From: Wenzhouxiangella sp. 15190
GTDB taxonomy: Bacteria; Pseudomonadota; Gammaproteobacteria; Xanthomonadales; Wenzhouxiangellaceae
Length of the DNA: 64,000 nt
Assembly (NCBI RefSeq): GCF_003417465.1
Contig: NZ_QVMV01000027.1
Span: 1 to 64,000, forward strand
Direction: 5' to 3'
Below, in pieces: positions 19,203-32,245 of the stretch (its first letter is position 1; each line of letters begins with the position of its first letter). The translations under genes and the position numbers were made by a program. The notes under the pieces were generated by a model. The model saw only the letters and a program-made list of their open reading frames with translations, was not told the origin of the DNA and ran no database searches.

Positions 19203-19352
19203 AAATTCGAAATCCGAAGCACCAAATCCGAAACAAGCACGAAATTCGAATGACAGAAACAAACCCTCATGCGTCCCTTCGGGACCATGAGGACAAAACC
19301 GTTTCGAGCTTCGTGCTTCGAATTTGTTTCGGATTTCGGATTTCGAATTTCA
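19203..19352 (+). repeat. Reduced copy of the inverted-repeat element (four-helix family)
   Basis: 5' arm 19203-19260 (AATTCGAAATCCGAAGCACC then AAATCCGAAACAAG, ending CGAATGACAGAAAC) and 3' arm 19301-19352 (GTTTCGAGCTTCGTGCTTCG, then AATTTGTTTCGGATTTCGG) are inverted repeats. Both match, base for base over most of their length, the arms around the gene at 25494-25859. The centre (19266-19292) is only a short hairpin, CCTCATG..GTCCC-TTC-GGGAC..CATGAGG. The ATG and first codons (ATGACAGAAAC) of the long copy's gene are kept. It lies between the SDR stop and the convergent end of gltA and may also stop transcription there. Confidence 0.75.
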
Positions 19353-19392
19353 GATTTTTAGGGTTCGAGGCCACCACACCTCGAACCAGCCA

Positions 19393-22799: not shown

Positions 22800-22825
22800 A
22801 CGCTTGACCCAATGCACAAAACCAA

Positions 22826-22906
22826 GGAACCACGGAAGACACTGAAAGCACGGAATGTAATGAATTCATTTTTTCTTTCCGTGTCTTCCGTGAATTCCGT
22901 GGTTCC
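22826..22906. repeat. CCACGGAA-type inverted repeat between convergent genes
   Basis: GGAACCACGGAA (22826-22837) pairs with TTCCGTGGTTCC (22895-22906), a 12-base perfect inverted pair. Between them ACGGAA units recur, and a T-rich run lies at 22869-22876. This family of CACGGAA units is dispersed in many bacterial intergenic spaces. It sits between a secreted-protein gene and the recG stop and may act as a two-way terminator. Confidence 0.6.
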
Positions 22907-22913
22907 GCTTCAG

Positions 22914-24971
22914 TCAGACATCGACAAATTGCTCGGCGTCGCCGAGCCAGCGTTCGATAATCGTGTCCGCGCCGGGCTTTTCGAGTGACCCGGCCAGGGC
23001 CTTGACCGGCTCGAGCAGGTCGGCGTCGCGGGCCAGGTCGGCGACCCGGAAGCGCAGCATCCCGGTCTGGCGCGTGCCCAGCACCTCGCCCGGGCCGCGC
23101 AGTTCCAGGTCCTTTTCGGCGATGACGAAGCCGTCGGTGGTCTCGCGCATGACCTCGAGCCGTTTCTGCGCGGTCTCGCCCAGCGGCGGCTTGTAGATCA
23201 GCACGCAGGCGGCCTGCTCGCTGCCGCGCCCGACGCGCCCCCGTAGCTGGTGGAGTTGCGACAGGCCCAGGCGCTCGGCGTTTTCGATCATCATCAGGCT
23301 GGCGTTGGGCACGTCGACACCGACCTCGATCACCGTGGTGGCCACCAGCAAGGCGACCCGGCCGGCGGAAAAATCGTCCATGACCGCCTGCTTTTCGGCC
23401 GGCTTCATGCGCCCGTGAACCAGGCCGACGCTGAATTCCGGCAACGCGCCCGACAATTCTTCGGCCGTGGACTCCGCCGCCTGGGCCTCGAGCAGTTCGG
23501 ACTCCTCGATCAGCGGACACACCCAGTAAGCCTGCCTTCCTTCGCCCAGTGCGCGCCGGAGTCGCTCGACGATTTCCTCGCGCCGACCCTGGCTGAGCAC
23601 CACGGTGGTCACCGGCTTGCGGCCCGGCGGCAGTTCGTCGATGACCGAGATGTCGAGACCGGCATAGGCGGTCATTGCCAGGGTGCGGGGAATGGGGGTA
23701 GCGGTCATGACCAGCTGGTGCGGGGAACGCGCGCCCTCGCTGCCCTTGGCCGCCAGCGCCAGGCGCTGGTGCACGCCGAAGCGATGCTGTTCGTCGACGA
23801 CGATCAGGGCCAGGTCCCGGAACTCGACGCCTTCCTGGAACAGGGCGTGCGTACCGATGGCGATGCTGGCCTCGCCGGCCAGACGATCGAGCGCCTCGCG
23901 GCGCGCCCGGCCCTTGACCTTGCCGGCGAGCCAGACCGGCTCGATGCCCAGCGGCTCCAGCCATTGCGACAGGGTGCGATAGTGCTGCTCGGCCAGGATC
24001 TCGGTCGGCGCCACGATGGCCGCCTGCCGACCGCTGGCCGAGGCGGCCAGCAGCGCAATGGCGGCGACCAGGGTCTTGCCCGAACCCACATCACCCTGAA
24101 GCAGCCGGCGCATGGGTCGCTTGCCGGCAAGGTCGGCCATGATCTCGCCGGCCACCCGCGTCTGGGCGCCGGTCGGCTCGAAACCGACGACCTCGAGCAG
24201 GCGTTGCTGCAGGGTGTCGTCCGGCTCGAGTGAATGCGCCCGCTGACGCTCGCGAGCCCGGTTCAGCCGGGTCAGGGCCAGATGATGCGCCAGCAACTCT
24301 TCGCTGGCCAGGCGCTGCACCGCCGGATGGTGGCCGTCGACGAGCGCCGCGAGATCCTCGTCGGGACCCGGCCGATGGATGATGCCGAGTGCCTCGACCA
24401 GCGGCATCCGTTTCCCGTCGGCCAGCGGGTCGTGCAATTCGATCTGTCCGGAGAGCAGGCGTTCGACCGCGCCGTCGATCGCCTTCGCCAGCGTGGCCTG
24501 CGCCAGGCCCTGGGTGACCGGATAGATGGCCGTGAGATGTTTCGGCAGCGGCGGCGACTTGCCCGCCGCCAGCACCTGGCACTGCGGGTGCGCCATCTCG
24601 AAGCCCTGCGGCCCGAAACGCACATCGCCAAAGCAGCGCACCCGGTTGCCTTCGCGAAACATGCGCCGCTGCGAGGGATAGAAACGGAAGAAGCGCAGCG
24701 TGATCTGCCCGCTATCGTCGGCCAGGGTCACCAGCAGCATGCGGCGCCGGCGCTGCACGACTTCCTGATGCATCACCCGCCCCTCCACCTGGGCGCGGGT
24801 TTCGGGTCGCACGCGGTTCATCGGAACGATGCGCGTGCGGTCTTCGTAGCGCAGCGGGCGATGGAACAGCAGGTCCAGCTCGCGGGTGATGCCCAGCGCC
24901 TTGAGGCGCGAGGCCACCTGCGGCCCGACGCCGGCCAGCTCGCCGACCGGCCGCAAACCCTGATCCGTCAC
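22914..24971 (-). CDS. recG: ATP-dependent DNA helicase RecG
   Basis: 685 residues, normal for RecG. It remodels stalled replication forks and Holliday junctions. The N-terminal wedge domain (HRPLRYEDRT) is followed by helicase motifs: Walker A GDVGSGKTLVAA, DEQHRFGVHQR (motif II), TATPIPRTLA and the motif VI QLRGRVGRG. The start is GTG 24971, which gives MTDQGLRPVGELAGVGP as family members begin; the frame extends upstream to 25100 but that part overlaps ridA and is not RecG-like. The gene follows ridA by 28 bases at the end of the yicC-gmk-rpoZ-spoT-ridA run. Confidence 0.95.
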   Translation of the reverse strand: MTDQGLRPVGELAGVGPQVASRLKALGITRELDLLFHRPLRYEDRTRIVPMNRVRPETRAQVEGRVMHQEVVQRRRRMLLVTLADDSGQITLRFFRFYPSQRRMFREGNRVRCFGDVRFGPQGFEMAHPQCQVLAAGKSPPLPKHLTAIYPVTQGLAQATLAKAIDGAVERLLSGQIELHDPLADGKRMPLVEALGIIHRPGPDEDLAALVDGHHPAVQRLASEELLAHHLALTRLNRARERQRAHSLEPDDTLQQRLLEVVGFEPTGAQTRVAGEIMADLAGKRPMRRLLQGDVGSGKTLVAAIALLAASASGRQAAIVAPTEILAEQHYRTLSQWLEPLGIEPVWLAGKVKGRARREALDRLAGEASIAIGTHALFQEGVEFRDLALIVVDEQHRFGVHQRLALAAKGSEGARSPHQLVMTATPIPRTLAMTAYAGLDISVIDELPPGRKPVTTVVLSQGRREEIVERLRRALGEGRQAYWVCPLIEESELLEAQAAESTAEELSGALPEFSVGLVHGRMKPAEKQAVMDDFSAGRVALLVATTVIEVGVDVPNASLMMIENAERLGLSQLHQLRGRVGRGSEQAACVLIYKPPLGETAQKRLEVMRETTDGFVIAEKDLELRGPGEVLGTRQTGMLRFRVADLARDADLLEPVKALAGSLEKPGADTIIERWLGDAEQFVDV

Positions 24972-24999: not shown

Positions 25000-25389
25000 T
25001 CAGTGCTCGCCGAGCACCATGATCGCGTCCATCTCCACCGGCACGCCCTTCGGAAGCGCGGCGACCTGGACGGCGGCCCGGGCGGGATAGGGCTCCGCAA
25101 AACGCTCGGCCATCAGTTCGTTGACCGTGGCGAAATGCGACAGGTCGGTCAGGAAGACGTTGAGCTTGGCGATATCGTCCATCGTCCCGCCGGCGGCCTC
25201 GACCACGGCCGCGAGGTTGTCGAAAACCCGGTTGGTCAGCGCCGTGAAATCCCCCTCGATCACCTCACCCGTGGCGGGATCGAGCGGAATCTGGCCGGAA
25301 AGATAAACCGTATTACCGGCGCGAACGGCCTGGGAGTAGGGGCCGATGGCGGCGGGTGCGGCGGACGTTTCTATTGGCTGTTTTGACAT
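25000..25389 (-). CDS. ridA: RidA-family enamine/imine deaminase
   Basis: 129 residues. It removes reactive enamine/imine intermediates produced by PLP enzymes such as threonine dehydratase. Signatures are [20 protein letters not shown] near the N-terminus, the conserved Arg in [20 protein letters not shown], and the C-terminal EMDAIMVLG. It trims like a normal-length member. It lies 28 bases upstream of recG. The four-helix-bundle element lies between it and spoT, although spoT-ridA-recG would otherwise be a continuous run. Confidence 0.95.
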
Positions 25390-25418
25390 GTCGAAGATCT
25401 CCGGGCTTTAGCTGATAC

Positions 25419-25915
25419 AAAAATTCGAAATACGAAGCACCAAATACGAAACAAATTCGAAGCACGAATTTTCGAAACAACGAACATCGATGCTCAGGAT
25501 GAATTTCTGAGAATTGCACCCAGTATAAGCATGAGCTGCCGGCCTTCTTCCACCAACGCAGATCTTTGCTCAAGCAGGCTTTGATCATCCCGACAATCCA
25601 GGAGCCTGAGCCAGTATTGCGCCTCCTTGGATTCCTTACGGGCAATCCGGATTCGGTGGCGGAAATCCCGCTTGCTCAGGGCCTCGTTGGCTTCGATGTA
25701 ATTGGCTCCTACGGAACCCGACGCCCTGATGAGCTGTTTGGCGTCCTCGATATTGCCGATGGTCCTCGGGAGTCCTTTGCAGAATTGCCTGACCGATCGG
25801 GCAAACTCGAAGGTCCGATCTTCGAGATCGTAGCTAGAGTTATCGGTCGTTTCGGTCATTCGAATTTCGATTTTCGAATTTGTTTCGGATTTGGTGCTTC
25901 GGATTTCGAAAATTC
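25419..25915 (-). mobile_element. Candidate mobile stem-loop element carrying a four-helix-bundle gene
   Basis: 497 bases. Arms of about 55-60 bases are inverted repeats: one at 25419-25478 (ATTCGAAATACGAAGCACCA, then AATACGAAAC), the other at 25858-25915 (its reverse complement reads TTTTCGAAATCCGAAGCACC, then AAATCCGAAACAAATTCG). The single gene 25494-25859 lies between. Its ATG is inside the inner end of one arm (AATTCGAATGACCGAAAC). It interrupts the spoT-ridA-recG run. A reduced copy with matching arms is at 19203-19352 and a solo arm at 32199-32245. RNA from it would fold into a long stem with the gene as loop, recalling intervening sequences of 23S rRNA. No transposase is visible, and no target duplication is seen. 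Confidence 0.65.
25494..25859 (-). CDS. Four-helix-bundle protein, S23/IVP-Avd family
   Basis: 121 residues, all helical, starting MTETTDNSSYDLEDRTFEF. The motif pattern (LEDRTFEFARSVRQFCK, then LIRASGSVGANYIEANEALSKRDF, then KESKEAQYWLRLL) is that of the four-helix-bundle family known from 23S rRNA intervening sequences of Leptospira and Coxiella and from the Avd accessory protein of diversity-generating retroelements. Members form pentamers that bind nucleic acid. No reverse transcriptase or variable repeat lies in this window, so it is not part of a DGR here. Its start codon falls within the inner end of one inverted-repeat arm and the stop just before the other. Function unknown. Probably expressed with the spoT run. 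Confidence 0.9.
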   Translation of the reverse strand: MTETTDNSSYDLEDRTFEFARSVRQFCKGLPRTIGNIEDAKQLIRASGSVGANYIEANEALSKRDFRHRIRIARKESKEAQYWLRLLDCRDDQSLLEQRSALVEEGRQLMLILGAILRNSS

Positions 25916-25934
25916 GGGCACCCCGCGCCCGTAA

Positions 25935-28043
25935 TCATTCTCTCCCTACCCGTAATACGTGTTGATTCCGCCGCAGGCGCCGCATCACGCGGGCGAGTTG
26001 GTCGCGGCCGGTGACGGCGAGGGTGAACTGGAGGATGGCGGTCTCGCGCGTGGTGGTGGGTTGTTCGACGCGTTCGATGTTGGCGCCGACTTCGCTGAGG
26101 GTGGCCGAGACCGAAGCGAGCACACCGGGACCGTTGATGGTGACGATCTTCAGCCGCACCGAGAAGTAACCGTGCATCACCGGCGCCCAGTCGACTTCCA
26201 GGCAGCGTTCGGCGTGATCCTTTCTCAGCTCCGGCACGTTGGGACAGCGCTGGCGGTGGATGACCAGGCCCTTGCCGGGGGAGAGATAACCCATGATCGG
26301 ATCGCCCGGCACCGGGTGGCAGCAGTTGGCGAATTCGATCGCGCTGCCCTCGGTGCCGCCGATAGTCAGCGCTTCGGATTCCGGTTCTTCGCTCGTCCTG
26401 CGCTGCGTCAGCGGCAACAGCTTGTGGGCGACGATCCGGGCGAGCATGTCGCCACGAGCGATGCGGATGAGCAGGTCCTCGAGGCGCTCGAGCTTGAGCT
26501 TCTTGAGGTAGCGGTCCAGCCGGCGCTCGGAAATCTTTTCCAGCGAGAAGCCGCGGCGCGCCAGGGCCTGGTCGAGCAGGCGGTGGCCGATGGCCACGGA
26601 GTCGGCCTGCTCGAGGTTCTTCAGGTGTGCGCGGATGCTCGAACGCGCCTTGGAGGTGGCCACGAACTCCAGCCACTCCGGCTGCGGCGTGGCGCCCTTC
26701 TGGGTGATGATCTCCACGGTCTGGCCCGATTCCAGGCGGGTGTTGAGCGGCACCGGCTCGCGATCGATGCGCGCACCCACGGCCTGGTTGCCCACGTCGG
26801 TGTGGATGGCGTAGGCAAAATCGAGCGCGGTGGCGTCGGCCTTGAGGTCGATGATCTTGCCCCGGGGCGTGAACACGAACACCTCGTCGGGAAACAATTC
26901 CGACTTGGCCGCATCCAGGAATTCCACCGAGTCGGTCGCGCGCGACTGCGTCTCGACCAGCTTGAGCAGCCATTCGCGTGCGCGCACGGCCGTCTGGCCG
27001 TCGGGCGTGGCCTTGTAGAGCCAGTGCGCCGCCGCGCCCTTCTCGGCGACGAGGTCCATCTCCTCGGTGCGGATCTGGATCTCGATCGGCACGTCGAAGC
27101 TGGTGTTGACCACCGTGTGCAGCGACTGGTAGCCGTTGGGCTTGGGCAGGGCGATGTAGTCCTTGAAACTGCCCGGCTTGGGCTTGTAGAGCGCGTGCAC
27201 CACGCCCAGGGCCTGGTAACAATGCGGCTCCGAGTGCGTCACGATGCGAAATGCATACAGGTCCATGACCTGGTCGAAGCTCAGCGACTTGTCGCGCATC
27301 TTGCAGTAGATGCTGTAGAGCGTTTTGGTCCGCCCTTCGACCCGCGCCGGGATACCGGCCTCGCTGAGTTTCTTCTTGAGCGCGGCGGTCACCGAGTCGA
27401 TGAGTTCGGCGCGATTGCCCGCGCCCTGCTTGACGCGGCCGCTCAATACCCGGTAGCGGTTGGGATGCCGATGCTGGAAACCGAGGTCTTCGAGTTCTTC
27501 GCGCAGTTCGTTCATGCCCAGGCGCGCGGCGATGGGTGCGTAGATTTCGAGGGTTTCGGTCGAGATGCGCCGCCGCGAGGGTGCCGTCATGTGGCCGATG
27601 GTGCGCATGTTGTGCAGGCGGTCGGCCAGCTTGATGAAGATCACGCGCAGGTCGCGGCTCATCGCCAGCAGGAGCTTGCGGAAACTTTCGGCATCCGCCT
27701 CCTGGCGGGTGCGGAACTTCATCTTGTCGAGCTTGGTGACCCCGTCGACCAGCTTGGCGATCTGCTCATCGAACTGATCGGCGAGATCGTCGTGCTCGAT
27801 CTCGGTGTCCTCGATGGTGTCGTGCAGGATGGCCGCGGCGATGGTCTGGTGATCCATGCGCATGGCGGCGAGGATGTGCGCCACCGCCACCGGGTGCATG
27901 ATGTAGTCCTCGCCGGACTTGCGTTTCTGACCCTCGTGGGCCGCGGCACCGATTTCATAGGCACGCAGCACGACGGCCACGTGCTCGGGTTCGAGGTAGG
28001 TATTGAGCAGGTCCCTGAGCTCACGGACCGGGGCAGGCAGCAT
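25935..28043 (-). CDS. spoT: Bifunctional (p)ppGpp synthetase/hydrolase SpoT
   Basis: 702 residues. It makes and degrades the stringent-response alarmones. Domains in order are the HD hydrolase with HDTIEDT and intact active-site residues, the nucleotidyl-transferase synthetase with KPNGYQSLHT, a TGS domain (ATALDFAYAIHTDVGNQ), a helical linker and a C-terminal ACT domain. An intact HD domain identifies it as the SpoT/Rel bifunctional type. ATG 28043 follows GGAG. It stands in the run gmk-rpoZ-spoT, 54 bases after rpoZ, as in E. coli. The gene ends 20 bases from one arm of the inverted-repeat element. Confidence 0.97.
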   Translation of the reverse strand: MLPAPVRELRDLLNTYLEPEHVAVVLRAYEIGAAAHEGQKRKSGEDYIMHPVAVAHILAAMRMDHQTIAAAILHDTIEDTEIEHDDLADQFDEQIAKLVDGVTKLDKMKFRTRQEADAESFRKLLLAMSRDLRVIFIKLADRLHNMRTIGHMTAPSRRRISTETLEIYAPIAARLGMNELREELEDLGFQHRHPNRYRVLSGRVKQGAGNRAELIDSVTAALKKKLSEAGIPARVEGRTKTLYSIYCKMRDKSLSFDQVMDLYAFRIVTHSEPHCYQALGVVHALYKPKPGSFKDYIALPKPNGYQSLHTVVNTSFDVPIEIQIRTEEMDLVAEKGAAAHWLYKATPDGQTAVRAREWLLKLVETQSRATDSVEFLDAAKSELFPDEVFVFTPRGKIIDLKADATALDFAYAIHTDVGNQAVGARIDREPVPLNTRLESGQTVEIITQKGATPQPEWLEFVATSKARSSIRAHLKNLEQADSVAIGHRLLDQALARRGFSLEKISERRLDRYLKKLKLERLEDLLIRIARGDMLARIVAHKLLPLTQRRTSEEPESEALTIGGTEGSAIEFANCCHPVPGDPIMGYLSPGKGLVIHRQRCPNVPELRKDHAERCLEVDWAPVMHGYFSVRLKIVTINGPGVLASVSATLSEVGANIERVEQPTTTRETAILQFTLAVTGRDQLARVMRRLRRNQHVLRVGRE

Positions 28044-32135: not shown

Positions 32136-32198
32136 GCGGCAATCCTCAGCGAAATGCCTGGACAAGGGCGCCAGATCACCTGTTATGGCCATTTGAAC

Positions 32199-32245
32199 AT
32201 TCGAATTTCGAATTTGCTTGGAATTTGGTGCTTGGAATTTGGTGC
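32199..32245 (-). repeat. Solo arm of the four-helix-element family
   Basis: ATTCGAATTTCGAATTTGCT then TGGAATTTGGTGCTTGG matches, in the same orientation, the right-hand arm at 25858-25915 around the four-helix gene, with several changes. No matching second arm is seen nearby. Read on minus the arm again ends AATTCGAATG, keeping the start codon of the family. It sits between the toxin-antitoxin pair and hemW, in a 226-base gap otherwise without features. Confidence 0.6.

Follow-up and report, generated by a model that had tools for sequence, protein, structure and literature searches.

A four-helix-bundle gene enclosed by inverted arms of seven-nucleotide words: a widespread stem-loop unit found outside rRNA

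The window, a stretch of 64,000 nucleotides of Wenzhouxiangella sp. 15190 (contig NZ_QVMV01000027.1), carries on its minus strand spoT, a stem-loop element, ridA and recG, all in one direction. The features considered here are the following.

25494..25859, minus strand: four-helix bundle / 23S rRNA IVP-family gene (PF05635, E=1.3e-13; TIGR02436, E=3e-18)
25848..25919, minus strand: 5' arm, upstream of the gene (inverted repeat; nhmmer against the dispersed arm family, E=1e-17; period-7 test of the family)
25419..25480, minus strand: 3' arm, downstream of the gene, an inverted copy of the 5' arm (inverted repeat; nhmmer E=2e-12)
25935..28043, minus strand: spoT (RelA/SpoT-type), upstream neighbour (ORF of 702 aa; in most relatives adjoining ridA, with the gene absent)
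25000..25389, minus strand: ridA, downstream neighbour (ORF of 129 aa; adjoins spoT in relatives)
19203..19359, no strand assigned: gene-free paired hairpin of the window arm family (blastn/nhmmer; RNA fold z=-8.2)
32189..32242, minus strand: single arm of the window arm family (nhmmer E=2.5e-10; no partner arm within 250 nt)

The four-helix gene starts with an ATG at 25859, its stop codon ends at 25494, and the encoded protein of 121 aa begins MTETTDNSSYDLEDRTF. Its scores lie above the curated cut-offs of both models (PF05635, 51.5 bits against 33.8; TIGR02436, 66 against 24). The original prediction described an S23/IVP-type gene enclosed by inverted arms and placed between spoT and ridA, with recG next. 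The family matches, the inverted repeats and the order of the open reading frames agree with this, and no transposase is visible in the element, as had also been stated. The two further family members announced for the window were not recovered: this gene is the sole PF05635 match on the contig, the next best hit having an E-value of 1.6.

At its core, each arm (25424-25471 and 25863-25910) measures 48 nt, and the two are 88% complementary, with weaker pairing continuing outwards. The repeat is inverted, as predicted, but imperfect instead of near-perfect. As foreseen, the 5' arm takes in the start codon at its inner end (..TTCGAATGACCGAAACG..). This arm is an array of degenerate 7-nt words that closes, around the start codon, with ..GAATGACCGAAACG; the words of the window arms are AAATCCG, AAGCACC and AAATTCG, and the arm autocorrelation peaks at lags 7, 14 and 21. 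Folding of the RNA from 25415-25920 (minus strand) gave z=-6.45, with no shuffled sequence folding equally well, which bears out the predicted fold, a long stem whose loop contains the gene. The element thus has the complementary ends, long stem and enclosed gene of a 23S rRNA intervening sequence (IVS), and lies not inside an rRNA gene but in the protein operon spoT-ridA; a likeness of this kind outside rRNA had been proposed from the start. An Rfam scan of the element and 40 family loci returned no RNA family and no rRNA; matches to Ysr141 and MIR1509 were below the gathering score and were rejected, the MIR1509 one sitting on a CACGGAA hairpin. A hairpin of CACGGAA words, another short-word family, lies behind recG at 22805-22920 of the window (..GGAACCACGGAATTCACGGAAGACACGGAAAG..CTTTCAGTGTCTTCCGTGGTTCC..).

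The arms are not confined to the gene. The 497-nt element gave 119 matches (HSPs) in the 3.13-Mb genome, nearly all to the arms. An nhmmer profile of the arms identified 24 paired gene-free hairpins, with at most 250 nt between the arms. It also gave up to 25 single-arm sites, among them a few extra arms beside a hairpin; these genome-wide counts rest on searches and retrieved stretches. Recurrence at about 45-50 places is far above chance. The whole-genome search called for by the original prediction therefore located arms away from the gene, and the outcome that would have spoken against it, arms solely beside the gene, was not observed. The sequence that holds the start codon of the gene, GAATGACCGAAACG, or a close variant of it, also forms the end of many single arms. 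As the dispersed arms are multicopy and often 85-95% alike, the gene could be a cassette shuffled by homologous recombination of the host between pre-existing arms. Each genome, however, holds one gene copy with the window vocabulary against dozens of arm sites, and shuffling leaves the multiplication and phylum crossing of the gene-free hairpins unexplained; we regard it as very improbable.

The spoT-ridA site was compared in 24 congeners, some with incomplete genomes. Two of them (G010 and G016) carry orthologues at the same site, with 67-69% protein identity, whereas in most relatives, G024, G003, G008 and G009 among them, spoT adjoins ridA without the gene. Even G024, with a ridA 92-93% identical to that of the window, has no gene at this site. 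In the three gene-bearing genomes, the two arms of each element pair with scores of 37, 24 and 33, while five of the six cross pairings between genomes lie at 15-20 and that of G010 with G016 reaches 38. Since own arms pair and cross pairings are mostly weaker, the words have changed on both sides together.

Such a paired change, as well as the long stable stem and the position of the start codon in the innermost part of the arm, would also suit a cis-regulatory stem of a resident gene, with a four-helix protein that binds RNA and regulates itself. The gene would then be inherited vertically with occasional transfer, the hairpins would be decayed remnants or sponge sites, and no mobile element would be involved. 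Presence and absence at one site among congeners argue against this explanation, as do the dozens of gene-free copies per genome, and we consider it improbable.

The boundaries of the element are less sharp. When 16 spoT-ridA gaps were aligned, no exact junction emerged, the gap DNA being diverged and often holding another hairpin family; other short-word hairpins occupy the gap in G024, G008, G009, G013 and others. No transposition event and no exact empty site were seen among the congeners compared at spoT-ridA. The comparison of occupied and empty sites, suggested by the original prediction, hence yielded presence and absence without the clean boundary. Measured against insertion sequences and MITEs, the element has no transposase, and with diverged gaps there is no exact spoT-ridA boundary at which a target-site duplication could be read. 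In G018, the gap (L077) is ~690 nt long and contains an unrelated open frame; the site accepts other genes too. Dispersed arms are found in 3/3 genomes with the gene and in 5/22 without it (one-sided p=0.024, some genomes being incomplete). The five are G024, G003, G008, G021 and G013 (G008, G013 and G021 incomplete). None of them has the window-type gene, so the arms can be kept in its absence.

The window genome contains five PF05635 genes, and all five carry inverted short-word arms in five different vocabularies: AAATCCG, AAATAGT, GTGGTCT, AAGTGTG and GTTGGCTG, the last with a period of 4/8. The four vocabularies other than that of the window are dispersed in the genome as well, AAATAGT at very few places. 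Further vocabularies occur in other Pseudomonadota and in other congeners. A hairpin elsewhere in the window genome (L036, 2179-2237, with its inner flank) is built of words that resemble the G016 element (..AATGATCGAATAATCAATCATC..) and may be a bridge from one vocabulary to another. In the dnaE2-like polymerase gene and at its 3' end (L014, 3072-7358, in the window genome; L196-L200), hairpins stand at fixed sites; at these positions congeners have different word families, some read through in frame, and a few of the sites are empty.

From the short-word arms at all five genes and the further vocabularies, it was predicted that the Xanthomonas gene XCC0516, whose protein structure is 2gsc, would be flanked by GGGAATC heptamers. 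In genus g115, probably Xanthomonas, and in others of the order, orthologues 88-90% identical to XCC0516 are surrounded by words of the GGGAATC/GGGATTC type and lie between accB and accC, as named from the flank sequence. These words match the GGGAATC repeat family of PMC4692102, which describes heptameric simple repeats in Xanthomonas (GGGAATC) and Nostoc (GGGGAYT); TAACTGA repeats have been reported in Beggiatoaceae (PMC4679880). Neither of the two papers mentions S23 or four helix, nor does PMC4692102 mention 23S or xcc0516, and no paper tying PF05635 to heptamer repeats was found in the open-licence PMC literature.

The most telling feature of the element, absent from the original prediction, is this 7-nt word structure, which recurs around the whole PF05635 family. 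Lag 7 is the strongest period of the flanks at 131/161 PF05635 loci, compared with 52/644 random positions. In a stricter test with one locus per site, it is the strongest at 56/69 PF05635 sites and at 44/198 control genes, these being other genes of the same loci (p=4e-18). The inverted-repeat score exceeds the 95th percentile of the controls in 59% of the loci and the 99th in just 19%, because such hairpins abound in these genomes and the arms are often degenerate. Five plasmid PF05635 genes of Cyanobacteria and Chloroflexota, which had played no part in forming the idea and are therefore out-of-sample, have period-7 flanks in 5/5 cases. Two cyanobacterial plasmids were also seen to have a four-helix gene between cas2 and cas1, running opposite to both (L285, 1492-1839; L286, 1492-1848).

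A pattern scan with the three orthologous proteins gave at least 570 relatives, of which the best 80 were used. These best 80 of at least 570 come from about 20 phyla (names include Wenzhouxiangella, Planctomycetota, Nitrospirae, Patescibacteria and Desulfobacterales) and combine the same gene with the same arm vocabulary at unrelated sites. Among them, the upstream and downstream flanks pair with a median score of 25.5, compared with 11 at random positions, and own arms outpair mixed arms (p=1e-6). The typical left arm of the subfamily is AAATCCGAAGCACGAAATCCGAAACAAATTCGAATGACCGAAA, with its inverted copy behind the gene, and the start codon keeps a near-fixed place at the inner end of the arm in the window subfamily. 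Close copies of the gene were found at unrelated sites, with DNA identities of 87% (L141/L163), 85% (L155/L168) and 80% (L113/L163). For pairs with unrelated flanks in this subfamily, protein similarity follows arm-word similarity with rho 0.75, the permutation maximum being 0.07. Outside the subfamily, protein relatedness predicts the words weakly (rho 0.13), and a general protein-to-word specificity was rejected on this ground. Phylum labels are partly clustered on the protein tree (29 changes, with a minimum of 18 and 38.9 after shuffling); the tree is poorly resolved and has too few columns for firm phylum-level forks. Phage carriage, with two weak matches, was rejected. Where both neighbours are co-directional, sense genes outnumber antisense ones by 97 to 2 (52 to 0 in the window subfamily), counts that include some orthologous sites. 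The sense orientation in operons is what a cis-regulatory stem would also show; near copies at unrelated sites are not.

The 7-nt hairpins might belong to the host, arising through replication slippage or the work of an unrelated system; PF05635 genes might settle in them as safe sites, like some insertion sequences in REPs. Relatives do have hairpins of several vocabularies at shared hot spots, whether or not a PF05635 gene is present, heptamers are over-represented in many genomes (PMC4692102, PMC4679880), and the link between protein and words is weak outside one subfamily. On the other hand, the same words accompany the subfamily gene in many phyla at unrelated sites, which local host repeats would not give, and the start codon occupies its near-fixed place at the inner arm end. 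Settling of the gene into host hairpins is hence unlikely, though less so than cis-regulation.

Taken as a whole, the observations are probably best explained by a widespread IVS-like stem-loop element located outside rRNA, with the gene-free hairpins as its non-coding relatives. For this stem-loop element, the following course can be proposed. Lying in sense direction inside the host operon spoT-ridA, the element would be carried by the host transcript. Its RNA would fold into the stem and probably be cut by RNase III, by analogy with the rRNA intervening sequences, which this enzyme cuts out (PMC4990558); that comparison agrees with both the sense bias and a stem that carries the gene in its loop. 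The protein of the element, a four-helix pentamer, probably binds stems of its own kind; this is plausible as PF05635 proteins form pentamers (2gsc, as cited in PMC4990558 and PMC10053308) and resemble Avd. Gene and arms would spread between genomes as one unit, in which the protein may take part, and gene-free hairpins and single arms would be to the gene what REPs are to RAYT genes. As for the driver, the genome contains three Y1_Tnp genes (L201, L202 and L203), none at the window locus or at the other PF05635 genes, and an HUH transposase was rejected. A reverse transcriptase was likewise rejected, no match to RVT_1 (PF00078) being present in the window genome, which is 99.8% complete; spread at the RNA level is possible.

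The association of the gene family with 7-nt hairpins, together with the gene-free hairpins, suggests that a class of mobile or mobilised element has been overlooked, and there is a fair chance that the gene-plus-arms unit represents just the visible part of a new class. A more far-reaching proposal, which we advance tentatively, is that PF05635 proteins are the coding half of bacteria-wide elements whose arms and derivatives are the 7-nt palindromes. The protein would act in trans, in an RNA- or hairpin-based mobility with a non-transposase protein, and the intervening sequences of 23S rRNA would be members that landed in rRNA. This would tie up two loose ends, namely the role of the PF05635/S23p pentamer, which has no known function, and the question why heptameric repeats and palindromes are so plentiful in bacteria. 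Should the protein prove to act on the word-arms, about 20 phyla or more would harbour a novel type of mobile or mobilised element, which could be tested in easy hosts such as Nostoc.

Several known systems share traits with the element. The PF05635 protein resembles Avd, the four-helix pentamer of diversity-generating retroelements (PMC10053308); unlike in those retroelements, an RVT_1 match is lacking in the window genome. The published heptameric repeats (PMC4692102, PMC4679880) are degenerate 7-nt units as well, intergenic and dispersed, and often form close inverted pairs (Xanthomonas). In contrast to the repeats as described there, words of the same kind flank a PF05635 gene here. The rRNA intervening sequences with an S23p/IVP gene, known from Leptospira and Coxiella (PMC4990558), have inverted terminal arms, a long stem and a PF05635 gene in the loop, are sporadically distributed and have been proposed to be selfish. 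The window element differs from them by its place in a protein operon, its arms of 7-nt word arrays and its many dispersed gene-free copies. In REP/REPIN systems with RAYT (TnpA-REP), a gene is flanked by an inverted palindromic repeat that is also dispersed without it, and a genome holds several such genes, each with its own repeat vocabulary. The window element likewise has a palindromic repeat in single and paired copies, which also flanks its gene; but this gene encodes a four-helix protein instead of an HUH/Y1 nuclease, and the arms are period-7 arrays instead of short REPs. The gene-plus-arms unit is real and widespread. It would work in the manner of an rRNA intervening sequence, from which its location sets it apart, and has a REP-RAYT-like organisation without a transposase.
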